41,690 bases of DNA from Pseudomonadota bacterium (GTDB lineage Bacteria; Pseudomonadota; Gammaproteobacteria; Burkholderiales; REEB80). The DNA is taken from contig JAGWIG010000020.1 of the NCBI GenBank assembly GCA_028873515.1, forward strand, positions 1-41,690, given 5' to 3'. Every line of letters begins with the position of its first letter. Position 1 is the first letter of the stretch. The position numbers were made by a program, and so were the translations under genes. Under the pieces are notes generated by a model. The model saw nothing but the letters and a program-made list of their open reading frames with translations, had not been told where the DNA came from and made no database searches. Of this stretch, positions 1 to 9,152 are shown one piece after another.

Positions 1-1305
1 CAGCCCAAGCAGCGGTACTGAACCGTACTTTCTGCCTTTGCTAAGCAGGTCATGGACAGACTGGATTTTTGGAAGTGTCGCAAACTCATCCAGACCAAAA
101 ACCACTCGCCGGTTTTGATCAGGTGGTAAGGATAAAAGGGAACTGATCAGTACATCCAGCCAGCACGAAATAAGAGGGTTCAGCAGGGCTGATTGATCAT
201 CTTTCACGGTCAGAAATAACCACGATCCTGCTTCACCTTGGGTCATCCATTTTCTTAATGAAAAGGATGCTTCACCTGCTGCCGGATCCAGAATTCCGAA
301 CGGCGCTGCGTAGGCTCCGAGTACCCCCAGGATGCTTGCCGTCATGCCCTTGGCGTCTTCAGAAATTAGCCGGGCTGCTGGCGTTCCTTTCACCATTTCC
401 GCCAGATCTTTCAGATCGGAATGAGCCAGGGCTGATAAAAAACTGTGATTGGTTGTTGCTCCGGCCAGCACCAGTTTTTTGAGGATGGCTGATATTGTTT
501 GCTGCGCGAAAAAATTCCATTCTGCACCATTTCCTTCCCCGTCCGGGATCAACGACTTTGCAAAGCGATCACAGTCCAGCCTTGGATCTTGTATTTCAGC
601 AAACGGCGACCAGGCGGGGGAGCGTGAATCCAGCGGATTAAAAACAATGTCCCCCTTGCGATAAAACCGTTCCAGAAATTGGGAACTTACATCAAAAATG
701 ACCGCCCGATCGCCCCTTTCCCGAAATTTTTGTAGCATCTGGATCATCGCCACCGATTTGCCCGTGCCCGGCGCTCCGGCCAACAACACGCCTCTTGTTT
801 CCACATCGCGGGGAAGAGGGATGTTACCGATCTGGGATGAGAACAGCACTTTGTCCAGCATTTTTAATACTATCTTTTCTACGACAAGCTGCGCTCCTCT
901 TAACCGCTGGTCTGCCCGGGATTTTGCAACAAAAAATGTATGATACAGGGTATGTAGTACCGGCCAGACAAAGGGGGTGATGAAAGCAAAAAAGATTGCG
1001 GCCCCGATCGTTTCTTCTATGGTCGGGTTTTGGGTTAATGAAGCCATGGCTGCCCCAAAAATCGCGCCTGCCGACATGACGATCATCAGGTGCTTTTTGC
1101 GTTTCTCTTTGACCTGATCATCGGCATGCTTGAAAAAATGACGGTACGCCCAGTATCCGATTCCTCCGGTCACAAGAAAGGGAATGAGGTCTTTAAAAAC
1201 GGGGATTGAGCCAAGCAGTAAAAAAATAAAACTGAAAATTAAAATAATGGCAATGATTTTTGTTATAGGATGCTCCAGCCCGATCATTCTGAAAAAATTA
1301 TTCAT
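1..1305 (-). CDS. traD: TraD/TrwB-type conjugative coupling protein (partial)
   Basis: Type IV coupling proteins are inner-membrane hexameric ATPases that bring the relaxase-DNA complex to a type IV secretion channel. The reading frame is open from 1305 through the left edge, so the C-terminus is missing; 435 codons are present. The start is ATG at 1303-1305, preceded by AAGGAG. Hydrophobic segments lie at about residues 17-50 and 75-120. The sequence IGNIPLPRDVETRG leads into Walker A GAPGTGKS near residue 175. DEFATLPKI near residue 403 is Walker B-like and is followed by SKGRKYG, a TrwB/TraD-type C-terminal stretch. It lies downstream of a rep module and three small genes on the same strand, consistent with a mobilisable or conjugative element. 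The family is clear; which lineage (F-like or IncW-like) is not. Confidence 0.88.
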   Translation of the reverse strand, partial: MNNFFRMIGLEHPITKIIAIILIFSFIFLLLGSIPVFKDLIPFLVTGGIGYWAYRHFFKHADDQVKEKRKKHLMIVMSAGAIFGAAMASLTQNPTIEETIGAAIFFAFITPFVWPVLHTLYHTFFVAKSRADQRLRGAQLVVEKIVLKMLDKVLFSSQIGNIPLPRDVETRGVLLAGAPGTGKSVAMIQMLQKFRERGDRAVIFDVSSQFLERFYRKGDIVFNPLDSRSPAWSPFAEIQDPRLDCDRFAKSLIPDGEGNGAEWNFFAQQTISAILKKLVLAGATTNHSFLSALAHSDLKDLAEMVKGTPAARLISEDAKGMTASILGVLGAYAAPFGILDPAAGEASFSLRKWMTQGEAGSWLFLTVKDDQSALLNPLISCWLDVLISSLLSLPPDQNRRVVFGLDEFATLPKIQSVHDLLSKGRKYGSVPLLGL

Positions 1306-1359
1306 GCCGATACTCCTTTGTGGTGGGGGAAAGGAAACCAAAAAAATTAAGACATTCTT

Positions 1360-1384
1360 TTCTTATTGCACTTGTTTGAAATTT
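1360..1384 (-). repeat. Copy 1 of a ~25-bp recurrent motif upstream of traD
   Basis: On the minus strand this reads AAATTTCAAACAAGTGCAAT followed by AAGAA. Near-copies occur at 2152-2176 and 2611-2635. In this copy the motif also encodes the last codons (NFKQVQ, stop) of the gene at 1363-1722, and it ends 55 bp before the traD start. Function unknown. Confidence 0.6.
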
Positions 1385-1722
1385 CTGGCCCGGATCCACA
1401 GCCCGATCAGGGTTACGGCAAGGGAAAAAACGGGGATAAGGATAAAAGCTTGGAAAACGCCACGTTTGATTGTTGGGATTTTTAAAGCCGCCCTGGCAAA
1501 ACTTGAGGCTGGGTATACGCCCCCGTGTAAATGGATTAAAGCGCCCGAGAAGCCGATCTTGATGATGAAGAGGGAATAGCAGGTTAAAGCAATCAAAAGC
1601 CTGTCCTGCCCCCATTGCCAGGCGGCAAACATCAACATCAAGATGAATGAAGTAGTGAATACAGCCATAAAAAATTGTGCCGTGGTACGCGGCTGGCGGG
1701 TCTGGCGGGGGATTCTGCGCAT
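1363..1722 (-). CDS. Small membrane protein of transfer region, unknown function
   Basis: The 119-residue protein starts at ATG 1722, preceded by GGAGACC. It begins with a basic, proline-containing head (RRIPRQTRQPR). Three hydrophobic stretches follow at about residues 17-36, 42-64 and 89-110, ending in the basic tail RARNFKQVQ, so an inner-membrane location is likely. The stop codon lies 57 bp before traD on the same strand, and a terminator just upstream (1754-1780) suggests it begins its own unit or depends on read-through. I do not recognise the family. Position suggests a conjugation accessory or entry-exclusion role, but nothing in the sequence proves it. Confidence 0.6.
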   Translation of the reverse strand: MRRIPRQTRQPRTTAQFFMAVFTTSFILMLMFAAWQWGQDRLLIALTCYSLFIIKIGFSGALIHLHGGVYPASSFARAALKIPTIKRGVFQAFILIPVFSLAVTLIGLWIRARNFKQVQ

Positions 1723-1753
1723 GGGCGGTCTCCGAAAAAAATTGGGGGGTGAT

Positions 1754-1780
1754 AAAAAAGCCCGGTTTGAGGCCGGGCTT
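1754..1780 (-). terminator. Rho-independent terminator after the 102-aa gene
   Basis: On the minus strand AAGCCCGG and CCGGGCTT pair around a 7-nt loop and are followed directly by TTTTTTATC. The U-run is on the minus-strand side only. It lies 6 bp after the stop of the gene at 1786-2094. Confidence 0.75.
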
Positions 1781-1785
1781 GGGGA

Positions 1786-2094
1786 TTAGCAAAAATAAGG
1801 ATCAGTAAAAATCTCGCACGCTTCTTCAAACGAAATTTCGTTTGAATTCACCCGTGCTGCAAGCCGGATTGCCCTTTTTACAATCTTTGGAAAACGGGTA
1901 TTACAGCGATTAAAGCCGAACCTGACCCATTCCGTGGACTCGCCTGACTTCTGGTTCTCCCGAAATTGCAGAGGGGGTTGGCCGGATTTATTACGGAAAA
2001 AATAAATCCTGTGAATTTGATAAAAATCGCCCCGACTTTCAAAATTCCGGGTGGCGACTGCACAAATTGTCTTGGCCTTTTTAGATTTAGCCAT
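1786..2094 (-). CDS. Small basic protein, unknown function
   Basis: The 102-residue protein starts at ATG 2094, preceded by AGGAGA; an upstream in-frame extension lacks a ribosome site and is not used. It opens with the basic MAKSKKAKT. A middle section with several aromatic residues (FYQIHRIYFF, WVRFGFNRCN) follows, then FPKIVKRAIRLAARV and an acidic tail EEACEIFTDPYFC. No signal peptide or membrane segment is seen. It lies in the leftward rep-tra gene string and is followed at once by a strong terminator. I do not recognise the family. Confidence 0.55.
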   Translation of the reverse strand: MAKSKKAKTICAVATRNFESRGDFYQIHRIYFFRNKSGQPPLQFRENQKSGESTEWVRFGFNRCNTRFPKIVKRAIRLAARVNSNEISFEEACEIFTDPYFC

Positions 2095-2151
2095 AATTGA
2101 ATCTCCTGTGTAGAAATGGGGGGATGAAGCCAAAAAAATTTCAGCTTCTGA

Positions 2152-2176
2152 TTCTTATTGCACCGGTTTGAAATTT
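2152..2176 (-). repeat. Copy 2 of the ~25-bp recurrent motif
   Basis: Minus strand AAATTTCAAACCGGTGCAAT then AAGAA, 58 bp before the start of the gene at 1786-2094. It closes a 16-codon ATG-initiated frame ending NFKPVQ-stop, which resembles the tail of the gene at 1363-1722. No ribosome site is seen for that small frame. Confidence 0.6.
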
Positions 2177-2220
2177 TGAGAAAAAAGATAAAAACTGGTC
2201 TGCATGAAAATAGGGTAGGG

Positions 2221-2580
2221 TCAGTAAAAATTCAGGTTTTCATTTCCAAAAAAAACGTTTCTGGAATTCGATTCGGCTTCCGCCTCATAATCCATCACCC
2301 ACTCTGCCAGCTCAAGCCAGCCGCTATTTTCAGGGGGAAAAGCCAGGCCGGCTATTTGTACTGCCTGCCTAAAATTTTTGGCTATTCCCACCCTGATCAA
2401 GGCGTCAAAAATTGATTCCTTGCCGCCAATTCCAACCTGAAAATGGCCAGCAGCCTGACTTTTGGTGATCGCATTCCTGATCAAATTTGCTGCAATTCGA
2501 TAACGTTCCTCCCCCCGGAAGGGGGGACTAAGCGGGGATTTTTGGGGATTGCCCCAATTTTTGTTGCCAGATTGATCCAT
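2221..2580 (-). CDS. Small soluble protein, unknown function, carrying an inserted repeat
   Basis: The 119-residue protein starts at ATG 2580, preceded by AGGAGGG. Residues about 11-24 (NPQKSPLSPPFRGE) are the translation of a G/C-rich palindromic repeat of the kind often dispersed in proteobacterial genomes, so the ancestral N-terminus may have been shorter. The rest (RIAANLIRNAITKSQAAGHF, IFDALIRVGIAKNFRQAVQI) looks like a compact helical domain with a C-terminal acidic stretch. It is the first gene after repC in the leftward string. Family not recognised. Confidence 0.5.
   Translation of the reverse strand: MDQSGNKNWGNPQKSPLSPPFRGEERYRIAANLIRNAITKSQAAGHFQVGIGGKESIFDALIRVGIAKNFRQAVQIAGLAFPPENSGWLELAEWVMDYEAEAESNSRNVFFGNENLNFY
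2510..2527. repeat. G/C palindrome of a dispersed repeat inside a coding region
   Basis: TCCCCCC and GGGGGGA form a 7-bp stem around GGAA, followed by AGCGGGGATTTTTGGGGATT. It encodes the low-complexity SPPFRGE segment near the N-terminus of the 119-residue protein. This looks like an inserted repeat unit tolerated in frame. Confidence 0.5.
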
Positions 2581-2640: not shown

Positions 2641-2790
2641 GGGCAAGGGCGCGTTTTTAAAACGCGGCCTTTGACACTTCTAAAAGATCTAAAGCTTCTA
2701 AAGAAACCCCAATTTCCCGGGCATATGGTCGCGCTTTGGGTCATTTCCCGGGCATATGGTCGCGCGGATCGGGCATATGGTCGCGCCTGA
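2641..2790. other. Candidate replication origin or RepC-binding region
   Basis: This 150-bp stretch runs into the 3' end of repC. It holds a perfect inverted repeat CGCGTTTT-T-AAAACGCG (2650-2666), an A/T-richer stretch with a repeated CTTCTAAA, and three direct repeats (2718-2786). Iterons, an inverted repeat and an A/T-rich segment next to an initiator gene fit an iteron-type oriV. Origin activity is inference. Confidence 0.5.
2718..2786 (+). repeat. Three iteron-like direct repeats
   Basis: CGGGCATATGGTCGCGC occurs exactly at 2718-2734, 2749-2765 and 2770-2786. Repeat starts are 31 and 21 bp apart. Copies 1 and 2 share five further bases on the left. Copies 2 and 3 overlap the repC 3' end and encode a repeated DHMP in its tail. 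The length and spacing resemble initiator-binding iterons. Confidence 0.7.
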
Positions 2791-3553
2791 CCTTCCCGTC
2801 AACAATAAAAATCCCGATTTTTTTAAGCCCCTCATGATCTGCGGCGAGCTCTGATCGCCTATCTCTTATTCTTCCACCTGCCCCGACCGTTTGTATTAAA
2901 GTCTCCAGATCCCACCCCCCGTTTGGTTGATCCTGGTGGCTGAAAACGTGTCTGGCAAGCGCCTGGCTGATGCCATGCCTCAAATTAATAATAAATGCGG
3001 GATTATAGAAGCGCCCTATATCATTCTGTATAAACTCACTCCATTGGCCTGAAAAAGTAAATCTCCATTTCCTTCTGCCACCCCCGTCATCATCTTTATC
3101 AATTAATTTCATTAAAGAAGATCTGGGATCTTTTTCAATTCGGGAATCCGTTTCTTTAATTTCGTCCAGGATCGAACACAAATATTTATCCCCACGTTTA
3201 AAAATAAAGAGTTCAAGGATCGCAGCTTTAAGATCTTTTATCCTTTCCCATAGTTTGTCATGCCCGTATTTTCCAACTGCTTTTCTTAAGCGGTACGGAT
3301 CGACGAGAATTTGAATTCTCCCGTCATCCATTTTTCTTACCCCCAGATTTTCACGCATGATCACCTCAAGTATGTCCGCATGGGCTTGCCCCAACTTCCC
3401 TTCTATTTTTAACCAGCCCCACCGGGTTTCCAATTTTTGTGAAATTCGAACCGGACGGCGAGTTGGTTGAAATACGAGGCATCGTGCTTGATGCGCGGTG
3501 GTGGTGGGTAAATGAGTTAGATCAAATTCATGTTTTTTATTCCCACTCATCAT
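2741..3553 (-). CDS. repC: RepC-like plasmid replication initiator
   Basis: The predicted role is to bind iterons and open the origin for the helicase encoded just upstream. The product is about 270 residues, close to the IncQ RepC length. The start is the ATGATG pair at 3553/3550, preceded by GGGGG, and overlaps the repA end by 17 bp, an arrangement like IncQ repA-repC; a longer frame to 3658 is only the shadow of repA. The middle (DPYRLRKAVGKYGHDKLWER, LKAAILELF) and the C-terminal part (GISQALARHVFSHQDQPNGG, LETLIQTVGAGG, HEGLKKIGIFIVDGKVRR) match the winged-helix initiator layout of the RepC/TrfA type. The tail DHMPDPRDHMPGK is encoded by the direct repeats. The assignment rests on context plus fold-like motifs rather than strong identity. 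Confidence 0.65.
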   Translation of the reverse strand: MMSGNKKHEFDLTHLPTTTAHQARCLVFQPTRRPVRISQKLETRWGWLKIEGKLGQAHADILEVIMRENLGVRKMDDGRIQILVDPYRLRKAVGKYGHDKLWERIKDLKAAILELFIFKRGDKYLCSILDEIKETDSRIEKDPRSSLMKLIDKDDDGGGRRKWRFTFSGQWSEFIQNDIGRFYNPAFIINLRHGISQALARHVFSHQDQPNGGWDLETLIQTVGAGGRIRDRRSELAADHEGLKKIGIFIVDGKVRRDHMPDPRDHMPGK

Positions 3554-4409
3554 TATTTCCCCCGTTAAAAGATGATTCCATGCCTGGCCCGCGGGTAGGT
3601 TTGTACAACAACCCGTTTTCATCCCTTTTAACCCATACCCCTGCAGATTCAGGCCCATGACTTTGTTTACCGTTCCAAATCAATTTCCATTCCCTTCTTT
3701 CATCTTCATTCAACTTAAACTTTTTCCCTTCCTCTTTGCTCATCCCTCTGATTGTCCACACCGCCCGACACGCCGCCGGCAGGGCGGTCCCGCCACGCCC
3801 TGAGTGATGATCGGATCGAGAATTTAAAATTGAATCTTGACTTGAGTGATGCACAGCAATAATTGCCTGGTGGTTTTTAAATGCAGCCCGGATTAATGAT
3901 CGTCCCAGAAAATCCATTCCGATGTTATCTTCGTCCAAAGTGTGGAACATGATCAAAGGGTCAATGATCACAAGTTGATAGCCTGCTGTTATTTCGACAA
4001 ATTTATTGTATTGATCTGTCAGAACCGGCTCACACTTTAAACCTTTGACAGCCAACGGCATGCGCTGTCCTTCTAGACAGATCAGATCAAATTTAATATT
4101 ATTAAAATCGATGTGATTAAAATCATGATCGATCTGTTTTACTAAACCCTGAATTCTCCTTCCATGATCTGCTTTTCTATCTTCACCTTTTATTATTAAA
4201 ACTCCCCCTCGATCCTGGGGGGGTGTAAAAATATTGCCGATTGCCAACCCAGTCGCCGCGGTCGCCGCGAGCAGATCCGACAGAAACGATTTTCCAACCC
4301 CATCCCCTCCCGAAATTAACCCCAGATCACCCGCTTGCAGACCAGAAAAAATAAAATCTGGTTTTCCCCAATTTGTACAAATTGCATTTTGCAGCGAGAG
4401 AGCATTCAT
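3537..4409 (-). CDS. repA: RepA-type replicative helicase (hexameric RecA-fold ATPase)
   Basis: Helicases of the RSF1010 RepA family unwind DNA at the plasmid origin. The 290-residue product has Walker A GGDGVGKS at about residues 34-41, a motif GGVLIIKGEDR, Walker B-like LVIIDPLIMF and the following AIIAVHHSSQ sensor strand typical of the family. SGRGGTALPAACRAVW resembles the conserved SRGSSAL-type loop. ATG at 4409 is preceded by GGAGGGGGT and overlaps the previous stop by 4 bp (ATGA), so translation is probably coupled. It lies between a regulator-like gene and repC. Confidence 0.82.
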   Translation of the reverse strand: MNALSLQNAICTNWGKPDFIFSGLQAGDLGLISGGDGVGKSFLSDLLAATAATGLAIGNIFTPPQDRGGVLIIKGEDRKADHGRRIQGLVKQIDHDFNHIDFNNIKFDLICLEGQRMPLAVKGLKCEPVLTDQYNKFVEITAGYQLVIIDPLIMFHTLDEDNIGMDFLGRSLIRAAFKNHQAIIAVHHSSQDSILNSRSDHHSGRGGTALPAACRAVWTIRGMSKEEGKKFKLNEDERREWKLIWNGKQSHGPESAGVWVKRDENGLLYKPTRGPGMESSFNGGNNDEWE

Positions 4410-4996
4410 ACCCCCTCCACTTCAACAATCTCAGGCTGAAACAGGTCCACGATCCCAGCCGCCTGATTTTGCTGTATTTTGTTGACCAGATTTTGCCAAC
4501 GATTTCGGGCCTGCCTTTCACATACATGCCAAACCGCTGCAAGTCCTTTCCATCCTGATTTATTATAAATATCAATCAGTTGCTCATAACTTGATGCTGA
4601 ATTTATGTGGGCAGCATTTAGAACCTGATCTTCTGCTTGATCAGGAATCAAATCTTCCCCATTTTTCCCTTGTAAAAATGGCTGAGTCTGAATTTTCTGG
4701 CGACTATTCCTACTTTTTCCCTTTTTATTCAATTCGTTGCTTACTATCAGCCCACCATTTCTGGCTGATTTAAGCAGGTATGAAGCGCAACCATTTGAAT
4801 TTAAAGAGCCTTCTAACACTTTTAAAAAGGCTGTTGCGAGCGCGTCCTCCGCAGAAACAGCCGGATCTGCGGCCTCGGCGGCCACTTTGATCCAGGTAAG
4901 CGGGTGGCCTGCCAGACCCGCAAACCGGGGATCTGAAGCGATCATTGCTGCAATTTTAGTGCTGGAAAAGCTAGGTGAATCAACAGGTTGATGCAT
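4406..4996 (-). CDS. First gene of rep operon; weakly sigma-factor-like protein
   Basis: The 196-residue protein starts at ATG 4996, preceded by AGGAG. Residues about 47-80 (DALATAFLKVLEG, CASYLLKSARNGG) recall region 2 of ECF sigma factors. Residues about 150-170 (GLAAVWHVCERQARNRWQN) resemble a helix-turn-helix of region 4 type. The linker is polar. If real, it would be a sigma-like or DNA-binding regulator of the rep operon. The similarity is weak and read by eye, and the protein may simply be a Rep accessory factor. It overlaps repA by 4 bp and leads the leftward operon. Confidence 0.5.
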   Translation of the reverse strand: MHQPVDSPSFSSTKIAAMIASDPRFAGLAGHPLTWIKVAAEAADPAVSAEDALATAFLKVLEGSLNSNGCASYLLKSARNGGLIVSNELNKKGKSRNSRQKIQTQPFLQGKNGEDLIPDQAEDQVLNAAHINSASSYEQLIDIYNKSGWKGLAAVWHVCERQARNRWQNLVNKIQQNQAAGIVDLFQPEIVEVEGV

Positions 4997-5753
4997 GCTA
5001 AGCTCCTGAATGCAGAGCCATTTTTTCTATTTTTTGGTAAACAGACAACCCCTGTTGGTGTGTACAATAAACGTACATCTTGTAAACCAAAGGCCTTAAA
5101 TTTAATAAGATTCAATCACTTAGTTGTATAAATTCAGCGCTGGGCAACGTGGAAGAAGTGATGCTGGAAAGGTGAAGGCAAAGCCCCCCCAGGTTGCAGT
5201 TTGATAAAACTGCGAATTTTATACCAGATCCGAAAATCTGATGTTATCCCCAAAAACGGGATTTTTTGACTCCCCCGGCAAGCCGGGAGATGAATTCCTT
5301 GAGCCTCAAGGACAGGATCGGATTTCTCCAATAATTCTCATTATCCTCTCTTCATTTTAAATGTCAAACACTTTTATTATTATTTCCTTATAAATTTCAA
5401 TTTTATACTAAAAATTCTTGTACAAAACTATTCCTGAATTATACTCAATATTAATCAATAGGTTATAAATTTATTATTCATGCGCACTGTATCATACTTT
5501 TTTTGCATAATTTTTATATTCCAAATAAACATGTACAAACATAGTATCCAAACTCCCCAGTTCAATATAATAATGTTTTGTACACAGCTTATTAATATAA
5601 CTGTTACTTTTAAACTAAATTTAACATTTATAATAGCAAAGTCTAGACTTTATAGCCCTCATCCAGCATTGCTTAACTAAAATCGGTTCGTGCAAAGGCC
5701 TTTATTTATTATTTACTGTAGATAAATAAACAATATTGTTTATAATATTAAAC
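4997..5753. other. Gene-free, AT-rich spacer between rep operon and toxin-antitoxin block
   Basis: I see no convincing gene here. It should hold the promoter of the leftward rep operon and, at its right end, the rightward hicAB promoter. From about 5340 to 5750 it is very A/T-rich. TGTACA occurs at 5061, 5419, 5532 and 5579. A weak hairpin ATCCC/GGGAT followed by T residues lies at 5246-5268, and a CCCGGC/GCCGGG stem lies at 5274-5287. A 65-codon leftward frame at 5134-5331 runs through these repeats and is probably spurious. Confidence 0.6.
5728..5746 (+). promoter_or_regulatory. hicAB operator and -10 element
   Basis: AAACAATATTGTTT (5728-5741) is a perfect 14-bp palindrome that runs into TATAAT at 5741-5746, 8 bp before the hicA ATG. 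HicB-type antitoxins usually repress their own promoter, so this is the natural operator. No good -35 box is seen. Confidence 0.5.
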
Positions 5754-5859
5754 ATGAACAGCAAAGAACTCAAACAATGGCTGACTAAACAGGGGGCAAC
5801 TTTCAGGCAAGGGAAAGGTTCACATCTAAGGTATCAAGAAACAGTTGGGACTAAAGTAG
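5754..5859 (+). pseudogene. hicA: HicA toxin, broken by internal deletion
   Basis: HicA is a small mRNA interferase of the double-stranded-RNA-binding fold. ATG 5754 encodes a good HicA N-terminus (MNSKELKQWLTKQGATF, then GKGSHLR with the catalytic His at residue 24). The expected middle strands are absent. The C-terminal signature appears in another frame at 5833-5859 as IKKQLGLK-stop. About 20-25 codons are missing (estimated from normal HicA length), and the loss shifts the frame, so the start frame runs on to 5933 across the hicB start and encodes an unrelated tail. The toxin is very probably inactive, although hicB follows 19 bp after the old stop. Confidence 0.82.
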
Positions 5860-5878
5860 GCAGAAAGGAGAAAGACAC

Positions 5879-6298
5879 ATGTTTATTTACCCAGTTACCC
5901 TCACTCCGGCTAAAGAAGGTGGTTTTGTGGTGACGTTCGCTGATATTCCTGAAGCTATCACCCAGGGCGATACCAAAGAAGAAGCGATGACCGCAGCAAA
6001 GGATGCGCTTGAAACGGCCATGGATTTCTATTTTGAAGACCGACGCCAGGTTCCTTTACCATCCAGGGCAAAAAAGGATCAGCCGGTTGTGGAACTCGCA
6101 GCCAGCCTATCGGCAAAAATTCTTTTGCTAAATGAAATGTTGAAGCAAAACGTTCGTGCGGTAGAGCTGGCACGACGCCTCAATACCACGCCTCAGGAAG
6201 TGAACCGTTTAACTAATTTGCGACATACCACGCGGATTGACGGGATTGCAGCGGCTTTAAAGGTATTGGGAAAGCATTTGGATATGCGTGCCGTTTAG
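5879..6298 (+). CDS. hicB: HicB antitoxin with C-terminal HTH
   Basis: HicB neutralises HicA and represses the locus. The 139-residue protein has the HicB fold first (MFIYPVTLTPAKEGGFVVTF, ADIPEAITQGDTKEEAM, DALETAMDFYFEDRRQVP). An HTH domain follows at about residues 85-130 (NEMLKQNVRAVELARRL, TTPQEVNRLTNL). ATG 5879 is preceded by AAAGGAGAAAG. The antitoxin looks intact while its toxin partner is deleted, so it now stands alone and may act only as a DNA-binding repressor. Confidence 0.9.
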   Translation: MFIYPVTLTPAKEGGFVVTFADIPEAITQGDTKEEAMTAAKDALETAMDFYFEDRRQVPLPSRAKKDQPVVELAASLSAKILLLNEMLKQNVRAVELARRLNTTPQEVNRLTNLRHTTRIDGIAAALKVLGKHLDMRAV

Positions 6299-6311: not shown

Positions 6312-6587
6312 TCAGACTGCTTTTACGACTTCTGGATTTTGCGTAGCGATTTTGAGCAAGGTACGGGCAGCACCGGATGGTTCGCGTCGGCCTTGTTCCC
6401 AATCCTGCAATGTCCGCACGGAAACACCAAGAAGGAGCGCAAATTCAGATTGTGACATGCCGATCCTGGTCCGCGCTTCTGCTGCGGTAGATAGTTTAAC
6501 CTCTGTCTTGCGGATCGCTTTGCCAGATTTCATTTGGCGAGCGGAGTCCAATAGGTCTTTTTGAAACTGGTTTATTTCTTTATCCAT
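6312..6587 (-). CDS. higA: XRE-family antitoxin (HigA/NadS-like)
   Basis: The 91-residue protein neutralises the RelE-fold toxin encoded upstream and binds its promoter. The HTH lies at about residues 40-75 (RIGMSQSEFALLLGVSVRTL, QDWEQGRREPSGAARTLL). The N-terminal helix (IRKTEVKLSTAAEAR) probably contacts the toxin. ATG 6587 overlaps the toxin stop by 8 bp, giving toxin-first order as in higBA loci. It converges on hicB with a 13-bp gap. Confidence 0.85.
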   Translation of the reverse strand: MDKEINQFQKDLLDSARQMKSGKAIRKTEVKLSTAAEARTRIGMSQSEFALLLGVSVRTLQDWEQGRREPSGAARTLLKIATQNPEVVKAV

Positions 6588-6897
6588 GGTTCATCACCTC
6601 TGCTTTCAGTTTGGCTAGAAAATCAGCCGACAGGTTGTCGAATTTTGCCTTGGTATATGCTATCAGCAACCAGATACGGCCATCCACGCTATTGAAGTAG
6701 ATTACTCGCACACCGCCACGTTTACCCATGCCTGAACGACTCCAGCGCACCTTGCGGCAGCCGCCAGCACCAGGAATTACATCACCGGCAAGCGGATTGG
6801 CGGCAATCCAGTCGATAAACCCGGCCAGTTCGGAGTTCGACCATATCTGGGCAGCGTAGCGCTGGAAAACTTCAGTTTCTGCGACGGTTTTGAGCAC
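6580..6897 (-). CDS. higB: RelE/HigB-like toxin
   Basis: This is a probable ribosome-dependent mRNA endonuclease of the RelE fold. The family core is clear: FIDWIAANPLAGDVIPGAGG, CRKVRWSRSGMGKRGGVRVI and YTKAKFDNLSADFLAKLK. I place the start at GTG 6897 (105 residues), because the 18 codons upstream run through the promoter and operator palindrome and homologues begin near this point. No Shine-Dalgarno is visible at the GTG, so the message may be nearly leaderless. It overlaps the antitoxin gene by 8 bp. Confidence 0.82.
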   Translation of the reverse strand: MLKTVAETEVFQRYAAQIWSNSELAGFIDWIAANPLAGDVIPGAGGCRKVRWSRSGMGKRGGVRVIYFNSVDGRIWLLIAYTKAKFDNLSADFLAKLKAEVMNHG

Positions 6898-6906
6898 AAA
6901 ACAAGT

Positions 6907-6928
6907 ATACGGCAATGCCGTATTATAG
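6907..6928 (-). promoter_or_regulatory. higBA operator and promoter
   Basis: ATACGGCA-A-TGCCGTAT is a perfect 8-1-8 palindrome at 6907-6923. On the minus strand TATAAT lies at its upstream edge (about 6922-6927), with TTGACT abutting it and a poor distal -35. The placement fits autorepression by the antitoxin. Confidence 0.65.
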
Positions 6929-6992
6929 TCAAACTGCCACTTTTTAACCAAAATTTACATTTATAGTAGCAAATTCTAGGTTTTATAAGCCT

Positions 6993-7310
6993 CTAGCAAG
7001 CCTTTTTTACCAAATTCCGAATGACATTAATTGTCATTTCTGGACGGTTTGGAAAACGAGCCACCAGATCAAGCTCTCCGCCCATCGCTTCAACATGTTT
7101 GCGTAAGGTAGAAAGCAGCATGTCGCTTTTATTTTCCAAACGTGAAATTGTGTCCTGCCTCACCTTAAGATTTTTGGCAAGCTCTTCCTGAGTTAACTCA
7201 ACAGCCAGTCGCAAATCTTTGAGGGTAGCAAGGTTTGCTGCCCGATTCTCAATTTTAGCCTTTCTATTCTCTGGTAATCCAGCCATTATCTGTTCAAGAT
7301 TTTTAGCCAT
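6993..7310 (-). CDS. XRE-family antitoxin, partner of Gp49-like toxin
   Basis: The 105-residue protein has a typical N-terminus (MAKNLEQIMAGLPENRKAKI). The HTH lies at about residues 38-70 (RLAVELTQEELAKNLKVRQD, TISRLENKSDMLLSTLRKHV) and is followed by the AMGGELDLVARFP tail found in antitoxins of Gp49 (DUF891) toxins. ATG 7310 is preceded by GGAG; the eight upstream codons are not needed. It follows its toxin by 26 bp. An AATGACA/TGTCATT inverted repeat lies in its own 3' end (7020-7038). Confidence 0.85.
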   Translation of the reverse strand: MAKNLEQIMAGLPENRKAKIENRAANLATLKDLRLAVELTQEELAKNLKVRQDTISRLENKSDMLLSTLRKHVEAMGGELDLVARFPNRPEMTINVIRNLVKKAC

Positions 7311-7336
7311 GGTGTGTATACTCCATATATCCAATT

Positions 7337-7681
7337 TTAATCTGTCAAATGCGCTTCATAACGCTGGTCAGCAAGTTCAATCAGTTTGCTGTAAAACCGT
7401 TTTTGGTTAACGCCTGCCTTATTACCTGCTGCGAGCAGAATACCCTGCCGATCAGGATCGAAAGCAAAAGCAATGCGCCAAATTCCGCCATTCCAGTTAA
7501 ACCTTAGTTCTTTCATATTGGCATGCCTTGATCCATTGAGGGTATCAACAGTCGGGCGACCAAGATGAGGGCCGTATTGTCGTAATAACAGAGCATGGGC
7601 CAATAACTCATCCTGCAATGCAGGAACCCACTGTTCAAACTCCAGCGCAAATTCATCATGAAATAGAACGGCCCAAATCAT
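7337..7681 (-). CDS. Gp49/DUF891-family toxin (RelE superfamily)
   Basis: The 114-residue toxin is of the phage Gp49-like branch of the RelE/ParE superfamily. Family blocks in order are MIWAVLFHDEFALEF, LQDELLAHALLLRQYGPHLG, RPTVDTLNGSRHANMKELRF, GGIWRIAFAFDPDRQGILL and KRFYSKLIELADQRYEAHL. I start at ATG 7681, where homologues begin; a TTG-initiated extension of 19 codons lacks support. No strong ribosome site is seen. It is the first gene of a toxin-antitoxin pair transcribed leftward from a region with repeated TGTGCCA motifs. Confidence 0.85.
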   Translation of the reverse strand: MIWAVLFHDEFALEFEQWVPALQDELLAHALLLRQYGPHLGRPTVDTLNGSRHANMKELRFNWNGGIWRIAFAFDPDRQGILLAAGNKAGVNQKRFYSKLIELADQRYEAHLTD

Positions 7682-7816
7682 GCTGTAATTATGGATTAAA
7701 ACACATATGGATGCAAATACATATTTTTCACTCCGCAAATTATTGTTCGTGAAGCGGCTTGTCTTGGAATAATCAGCCTGGTTATTTCATTTATCAAACC
7801 AGACCTGATTGTATTG

Positions 7817-8021: not shown

Positions 8022-8110
8022 CTTTCATCCCCACGTGCGTGGGGGATACCCAAAATCATATGGTAATGGGAATCGGGTATCGCTTTCATCCCCACGTGCG
8101 CGGGGGATAC
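8022..8110 (-). CRISPR. Minimal two-repeat CRISPR remnant of type I-E form
   Basis: Two 28-bp repeats lie at 8022-8049 and 8083-8110, differing at one base (GCGTGGGG versus GCGCGGGG). They are separated by a 33-bp spacer, so the period is 61 bp, exactly the type I-E periodicity. On the minus strand each repeat begins GTATCCCCC and ends GTGGGGATGAAAG, matching the hairpin form of I-E repeats. No third copy is found one period away on either side, and no cas genes are in the window. It lies between two toxin-antitoxin pairs. Confidence 0.82.
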
Positions 8111-8203: not shown

Positions 8204-8512
8204 TTAAATCCCTGAAAAATCAGCCATCACTACCTCACCGTCCGGAAACTTCGCCTTGATTTCCAGTTCTCCACCCATCGCCTTAATGTGTGAACGTAAT
8301 GTACTAATGTACATATCGGTACGCTGTTCAATTTTCGAAACATTTGCTTGACTCACATTGAGGGTTCGAGCAATAACTTCCTGAGATAGCCCGCGGGCAC
8401 GTCGCAATTCATGTAAAGGATATTCTGCACGCAACCTTGAAGCGATCCGGTTAGCTTCATTTCTTGCTTCCACCGTCATCTTCGCCCGTAATTCAGAAAA
8501 TTTCTTAGCCAT
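8204..8512 (-). CDS. XRE-family antitoxin of second Gp49-type pair
   Basis: The 102-residue protein opens with MAKKFSELRAKM. The HTH lies at about residues 38-70 (HELRRARGLSQEVIARTLNV, SQANVSKIEQRTDMYISTL), with the SHIKAMGGELEIKAKFPDG tail characteristic of this antitoxin branch. ATG 8512 is preceded by GGAGAAGG and overlaps the toxin stop by 8 bp. The paralogue at 6993-7310 shares the STLRxHxxAMGGEL block but is clearly diverged elsewhere, so this is not a recent duplication. Confidence 0.87.
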   Translation of the reverse strand: MAKKFSELRAKMTVEARNEANRIASRLRAEYPLHELRRARGLSQEVIARTLNVSQANVSKIEQRTDMYISTLRSHIKAMGGELEIKAKFPDGEVVMADFSGI

Positions 8513-8882
8513 CTTTACCTTCTCCTTTATCTTTCTCCTGATCCAACTTTTCTAGATGTGCTTCATATAACCTGTCCGCAATCGGTATATGAACTTCATA
8601 CCACCGATCCTGACCTGTCTTGTCTCCACCAAGCAGCAATATTGCATCCCTTTTTGGATTGAAGATATAAAGCACACGATAAGGCTTACCCTGATGTTGA
8701 ATCCGTAATTCCCGCATATGGTTAAATCTGGATTGATTCACTCCAGAACAATGAGGGAATGTCAAATATGCGCCATGCTCTTCAAGAAGCTGAATTACAG
8801 CTTCTATGGAAGCCTGCTCTAATGCTGATAGGGAATCCCACCAAATCCCAAATTCATCTGTATATTCAATTTCACAGGACAT
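8505..8882 (-). CDS. Gp49/DUF891-family toxin, second pair
   Basis: The 125-residue RelE-superfamily toxin has blocks IEYTDEFGIWWDSLSALEQA, IEAVIQLLEEHGAYLTFPHC, FNHMRELRIQHQGKPYRVLY, FNPKRDAILLLGGDKTGQDR and DRLYEAHLEKL. A charged tail DQEKDKGEGKDG follows. ATG 8882 has no clear ribosome site. It is the first gene of its pair and the last protein gene before tRNA-Val. Confidence 0.87.
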   Translation of the reverse strand: MSCEIEYTDEFGIWWDSLSALEQASIEAVIQLLEEHGAYLTFPHCSGVNQSRFNHMRELRIQHQGKPYRVLYIFNPKRDAILLLGGDKTGQDRWYEVHIPIADRLYEAHLEKLDQEKDKGEGKDG

Positions 8883-8967: not shown

Positions 8968-8998
8968 TGGCACAATTCTGGCACAATGAACTGTGCCA
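8968..8998 (-). promoter_or_regulatory. TGTGCCA repeat cluster upstream of second pair
   Basis: TGGCACA occurs at 8968-8974 and 8979-8985, 11 bp apart, and its complement TGTGCCA lies at 8992-8998. One direct and one inverted pair of the same heptamer are therefore packed in 31 bp. This is the same heptamer as at 7817-7833. Confidence 0.5.
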
Positions 8999-9077
8999 AG
9001 AAGGGTAAATACGGGTAAATGATGAAAAACAGAAGTGAAGAGGTGTTACGTAACTTGCTATTTTATTGGTGTTTTTT

Positions 9078-9152
9078 TGGTGGGTGGTACAGGGATCGAA
9101 CCTGTGGCCCCTGCCGTGTGAAGGCAATGCTCTACCGCTGAGCTAACCACCC
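9078..9152 (-). tRNA. tRNA-Val(CAC)
   Basis: The cloverleaf is complete. Acceptor GGGTGGT pairs with ACCACCC, the D arm is GCTC/GAGC, anticodon stem TTGCC/GGCAG holds loop TTCACAC with anticodon CAC, and the T arm ACAGG/CCTGT holds TTCGATC. CCA is encoded. The 3' end faces the island on the left, the usual orientation for tyrosine-recombinase integration into tRNA genes. Confidence 0.92.

Follow-up and report, generated by a model that had tools for sequence, protein, structure and literature searches.

Why does a plasmid-type replication operon share a gene string with a conjugative coupling protein in a block that ends at a tRNA gene? An earlier note, made from the sequence alone, had read this locus as an IncQ-style repA-repC module in an integrative element that can also replicate as a plasmid, and had called this a less common combination. 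The window analysed here (41,690 bp) corresponds to contig C262 in its entirety, one of 275 contigs in the draft, 3.4-Mb host assembly. The new analysis indicates, with a probability of about 0.84, that the tRNA-Val(CAC) gene between gltX and aas has received, in its 3' half and through a tyrosine integrase, an integrative mobilisable element (IME) measuring at least 31 kb, and that window positions 1 to about 9,125 form its tRNA-proximal end. The excised circle would probably replicate like a plasmid, and a MOBF relaxase and coupling protein would present it to a channel that a helper most likely supplies.

Results

The block does end at a tRNA gene, as the earlier note had said: tRNA-Val(CAC) (9078-9152, minus strand), which is the integration target. 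A 56-bp att core (9070-9125, minus strand), running from the anticodon arm to past the CCA, is repeated exactly on a second contig, C228 (13289-13344), and the tRNA region recurs at high identity just once beside an integrase (C228:13289-13398). Specifically, a tyrosine integrase gene (Phage_integrase, PF00589, E 5e-32) adjoins this att copy, and 0.4 kb past att the contig becomes chromosome with an aas-like acyltransferase/acyl-CoA-ligase gene. In the congener G001, gltX, tRNA-Val and the same aas-like gene follow one another in this order without the present element, and the about 8.6 kb of other genes found there between tRNA-Val and aas suggest a shared insertion hotspot; apparent HerA-, NurA- and methyltransferase-type genes and katG are seen in this stretch (L062:9689-18325). 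An 18-bp motif, TGTGCCAGAATTGTGCCA, lies at 8968-8985 (minus strand) and again, exactly, at C228:13221-13238. These are the only two copies in the five contigs checked, one inside each element end and both in the same orientation, as would be expected of integrase arm sites, for which the motif is a candidate. Because of the att repeat, the TGTGCCAGAATTGTGCCA pair, the integrase and the gltX/aas flank synteny, C262 and C228 carry the two ends of one insertion, and the locus thereby has the integrase and the att direct repeats at a specific site by which an IME is recognized. The integrase beyond the window, the second att site and three complete relatives (below) bear out the claim of an integrated element.

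Inwards from the tRNA, the element carries a toxin-antitoxin pair with a Gp49/HigB-like toxin and an HTH antitoxin (8204-8882), a CRISPR mini-array of two 28-bp repeats and one 33-nt spacer (8022-8110), a second pair with a Gp49-like toxin and an HTH antitoxin (6993-7738) and a third with a RelE-like toxin and an HTH antitoxin (6312-6951), all on the minus strand, followed by a HicA/HicB-like pair on the plus strand (5757-6298). The repeats of the mini-array are near-identical to those of arrays on host contigs C167 and C181, and its spacer has no convincing target in plasmids, phages or viral contigs. The element part of C228 adds ArdC, an antirestriction protein, and a type II/IIG-like restriction-modification set. 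An A+T-rich non-coding stretch (4997-5756) precedes the rep operon and contains four TGTACA sites, against 0.16 expected and matched in none of 2000 shuffles; they are a candidate operator. The first gene of the operon (4406-4996, minus strand; 196 aa, family without assignment) overlaps repA by 4 nt. Its product has a DLF motif near the C-terminus (VDLFQP), as does the protein upstream of RepA at locus L096 (5903-6637; GDLFSGP), and the motif of both resembles a sliding-clamp binding motif. Three small ORFs between repC and the coupling protein (1363-2580, minus strand; 119, 115 and 119 aa) have no assigned function.

Three complete relatives, each bounded by exact att repeats, have the same architecture: a 15.6-kb element at tRNA-Val(CAC) next to gltX (G372:C77, JAJZPR010000001; att 51 bp), a 23.1-kb element at tRNA-Lys (G264:C2; att 47 bp) and a 29.1-kb element at tRNA-Phe (G203:C1; att 51 bp). 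In all three, the genes for the helicase, RepC, the coupling protein and TrwC come in this order, and the 15.6-kb element consists of RepA, RepC, an IncQ-type RepB primase (PF16793), coupling protein, TrwC, one TrbL/VirB6, an apparent toxin-antitoxin pair and an integrase. The G264 element (L053 15954-17399) has a full DnaB-like replicative helicase in place of the RepA-type helicase beside the same initiator, and the cargo of the G203 element includes a BREX defence system (BrxC, PglX; L050 10206-19004). The same RepA-RepC pair occurs in other mobile settings at loci L067 and L064, and on a 487-kb contig of Achromobacter (L063). On an 8.65-kb contig (L065/L056 2-1729), the helicase beside the initiator looks, by eye, fused to a Toprim-type primase domain.

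The rep genes do share their leftward string with a TrwB/TraD-type coupling protein (1-1341, minus strand; TrwB_AAD_bind, PF10412, E 6e-81), as claimed. Its C-terminal part is cut by the contig end, and a PF10412 search for the missing end found no small contig. The genome's only TrwC (MOBF) relaxase, comprising the TrwC domain (PF08751, E 1e-80) and a C-terminal helicase (AAA_30, E 1e-53), is encoded on the 8.6-kb contig C17, where it starts 217 bp from the contig end, oriented as it should be were C17 to come next after the truncated coupling protein gene of the window. Among the relatives, TrwC is encoded immediately or shortly after the coupling protein, and in two of them it is 36-37% identical to the C17 protein. 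A relaxase, which the earlier note had suggested looking for further left, is thus present in the genome; that C17 joins the window's element, which is split over at least three contigs, we infer from gene order, the ends of C262, C17 and C228 sharing no exact overlap.

If the unassembled middle of the element held a full mating-pair-formation system, the whole would be a complete, self-transferring integrative and conjugative element (ICE), and this middle is indeed missing from the assembly. A related locus in a Sulfuricella MAG (L067) points in that direction: a long membrane protein, DotA/TraY-like by eye and without a Pfam match, is encoded there downstream of RepA, RepC, a primase-like gene, a coupling protein and a MOBP relaxase. 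So does a 527-aa protein of unassigned family on C17 (2698-4281, minus strand), which is related (26%, E 3e-35) to the product of C212:45652-47136 (minus strand) near VirB genes. However, no full mating system is present on C262 1-9125, C17 or C228 1-13398, nor within the att repeats of any of the three complete relatives, where the 15.6-kb element has its single TrbL/VirB6. F-type TraC was seen below the family cut-off only, and the VirB sets lie elsewhere, on C132 with its own integrase and coupling protein and on C212 beside apparent chemotaxis genes. We therefore consider a complete ICE unlikely. The VirB genes on C132 and C212 mean that possible helpers are present for a mobilisable element, and the 527-aa protein may, speculatively, adapt a helper channel to it.

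Of the two main replication genes of this element, one is from the family of the IncQ helicases and one, by sequence, is not of the IncQ RepC family. RepA (3537-4409, minus strand; 290 aa) is an RSF1010-type hexameric replicative helicase, as the earlier note had it: it matches AAA_25 (Pfam, E 4e-14), its best PDB sequence match is RSF1010 RepA (1g8y, E 7e-10, residues 17-271), and it aligns with the RepA proteins of IncQ plasmids. The adjoining gene (2741-3550, minus strand; ATG at 3550, stop at 2741; 269 aa), identified as a replication initiator by homology and predicted fold, had been called RepC-like. It does lie in the repC position and overlaps repA by 14 nt, as in pLAtc1 and pAHH04 (both IncQ2-typed plasmids), and its product is 31-35% identical, over 86-92%, to the protein encoded next to RepA, on its downstream side, by small IncQ-like plasmids. 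Its family, however, has no detectable sequence relation to three IncQ-type RepCs, the annotated RepCs of pLAtc1, pAHH04 and pPNAP08 (hhalign probability 3.8%), and the 269-aa protein had no match in Pfam, NCBIfam or PDB sequences. The structure predicted from six sequences (pLDDT 75) has the two winged-helix domains of the RctB/Rep_3 fold class and is closest to RctB domains 2-3 (Z 13.8 over 215 residues), followed by RepE54 (Z 8.6), with unrelated chains well below. The position and overlap of the proposed RepC thereby stand, and its family assignment gives way to a predicted RctB/RepE-like fold.

The predicted origin (oriV, 2718-2786, minus strand) straddles the repC stop and consists of three iterons, GCGCGACCATATGCCCG, at 2786-2770, 2765-2749 and 2734-2718. 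The case for it in the window rests on these three identical 17-bp cores within 69 bp, which are spaced by 21 and 31 bp and place iterons of the about 20-22 bp class beside repC; since one spacing is 31 bp, the period-21 score at the window initiator's end (23) is not significant. Adjoining them, three TTTAGA repeats with a 9-bp spacing (2679-2711, minus strand), at a position homologous to that in relatives, form a candidate unwinding element. At the initiator gene end of eight relatives, period-21 repeats score 37-40 of 40, and in two more they score 32, one of these (p49879.2) having a period of 22; the repeats are weaker in L064 and p49879.1 and also in L063, where alone they lie about 0.9 kb downstream. 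Among 200 ORF ends in twelve loci, a score of 32 was reached by initiator genes only, all others scoring 25 or less. No site within 3 mismatches of the conserved 15-bp IncQ oriV motif, CTGCGCCTAGTGGAG, occurs in the element. The stretch at 4997-5756 was set aside as an origin, having no long iterons and just the four TGTACA sites.

A RepB primase (PF16793), free or MobA-fused, is not in the assembled genome, which has gaps, and IncQ-style strand displacement is not supported for this reason; a RepB primase is present in the relative L066. Priming could come from the host primase or from a gene in an assembly gap. The missing primase, together with an origin of three iterons only, one of them spaced by 31 bp, would also suit a decayed plasmid remnant that is trapped in a genomic island and no longer replicates. 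Yet RepA, the initiator and their 14-nt overlap are intact, as are the three iteron cores with their flanking repeats, and the att core has no mismatch at either end, which makes such a remnant quite improbable.

The initiator was found in 5 of 369 sampled genomes of the class, the host included, and free circular plasmids (5-9 kb) from C. braakii, Serratia and Enterobacter also encode it after RepA. On a tree of 14 initiator sequences, the labels 'plasmid' and 'integrated' switch at least three times. A phage origin was dropped because the initiator had no relatives in viral contigs (single-protein search) or phage records (tblastn). The free-plasmid relatives and the 275-contig draft might suggest a free plasmid contig artificially fused to the chromosome at the tRNA, but this is highly improbable, since the other junction, which has an identical 56-bp core, the integrase and the expected aas flank, lies on another contig and the relative G372:C77 uses the same tRNA-Val site.

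Discussion

The gene families, the att repeat, the flank synteny, the iterons and the recurrence of the same architecture in complete relatives are compatible with a model in which the integrase would excise the element as a circle that probably replicates like a plasmid. Specifically, the initiator (2741-3550) would bind the 21-bp-spaced iterons at the 3' end of its own gene (2718-2786) and open the adjacent TTTAGA stretch, and RepA (3537-4409) would load at the opened origin. For transfer, the element's own MOBF relaxase, if C17 belongs to it, and its TrwB/TraD-type coupling protein would present the DNA to a mating channel that some other element in the cell most likely provides. As such, the proposal of an integrative element carrying a plasmid-type replicon and mobilisation genes has gained att sites, an integrase, a putative origin, a MOBF relaxase and relatives.

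The combination, which the earlier note had called less common, has precedents: integrative elements with RepA/RepC, namely GIsul2 and the IncP islands, were already listed in 2017 (PMC5704250), and what appears new is the MOBF/coupling-protein module together with this initiator. GIsul2 and the IncP islands likewise have a tyrosine integrase and RepA or RepA/RepC genes (PMC5704250, PMC9376610), and the lone TrbL/VirB6 of one relative adds to the likeness. They target guaA, whereas the present element targets a tRNA gene; GIsul2 has neither relaxase nor coupling protein and the IncP islands are MOBP, in contrast to the MOBF relaxase and own coupling protein found here, a distinction drawn from published descriptions. 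IMEAcaSM.1 of Acidithiobacillus caldus is likewise integrative and, as far as its description goes, has just a relaxase and a coupling protein (PMC3826726).

The IncQ plasmids RSF1010, pLAtc1, pAHH04 and pPNAP08 share the RepA family, the repA-repC order and a short overlap with the element, and the IncQ1-typed pPNAP08 also has iterons at its repC end, with a period of 22. They differ in that the initiator is unrelated in sequence and in that no RepB primase, IncQ MobA or 15-bp oriV motif was found here. RctB of Vibrio chromosome 2 and RepE of the F plasmid resemble the initiator in predicted fold and iteron-type origin, a shared fold being no proof of shared function; they differ in their about 6-12% identity and in the pairing, here, with a RepA-type helicase. 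Two IncQ-3 plasmids, pUL3AT and pJF-707 (KX946994), have been described as deprived of repC (PMC7557826). In both, a homologue of the initiator occupies the repC position (NC_017097.1 8249-8995 in pUL3AT; KX946994.1), labelled 'ABC transporter ATPase', and in pUL3AT this gene overlaps repA by 14 nt and has 21-bp iterons at its stop. Unlike the present element, they are free plasmids of 8.3-9.0 kb, and pUL3AT is typed MOBP.

The initiator family appears to have gone unnoticed so far, database labels such as 'ABC transporter ATPase' or hypothetical protein hiding a replication protein. It seems reasonably probable that an unrecognised family, with an RctB/RepE fold and 21-bp-spaced iterons at its own gene's 3' end, replaces the IncQ RepC beside RSF1010-type helicases and moves between free plasmids, including IncQ-3 plasmids reported without repC, and tRNA-integrating MOBF elements that replicate after excision. 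According to a 2017 review, nobody had yet studied how IMEs replicate once excised, MOBF relaxases were not known from any canonical IME, and an own VirD4 coupling protein was present in only two putative streptococcal IMEs (PMC5704250), although later papers may differ on the last two points. The elements described here are candidates against the absence of MOBF relaxases in canonical IMEs, and they offer a defined initiator, helicase and origin for studying how excised IMEs replicate. In turn, judged by homology, the initiator would directly explain the replication of IncQ-3 plasmids in which repC has been reported missing.
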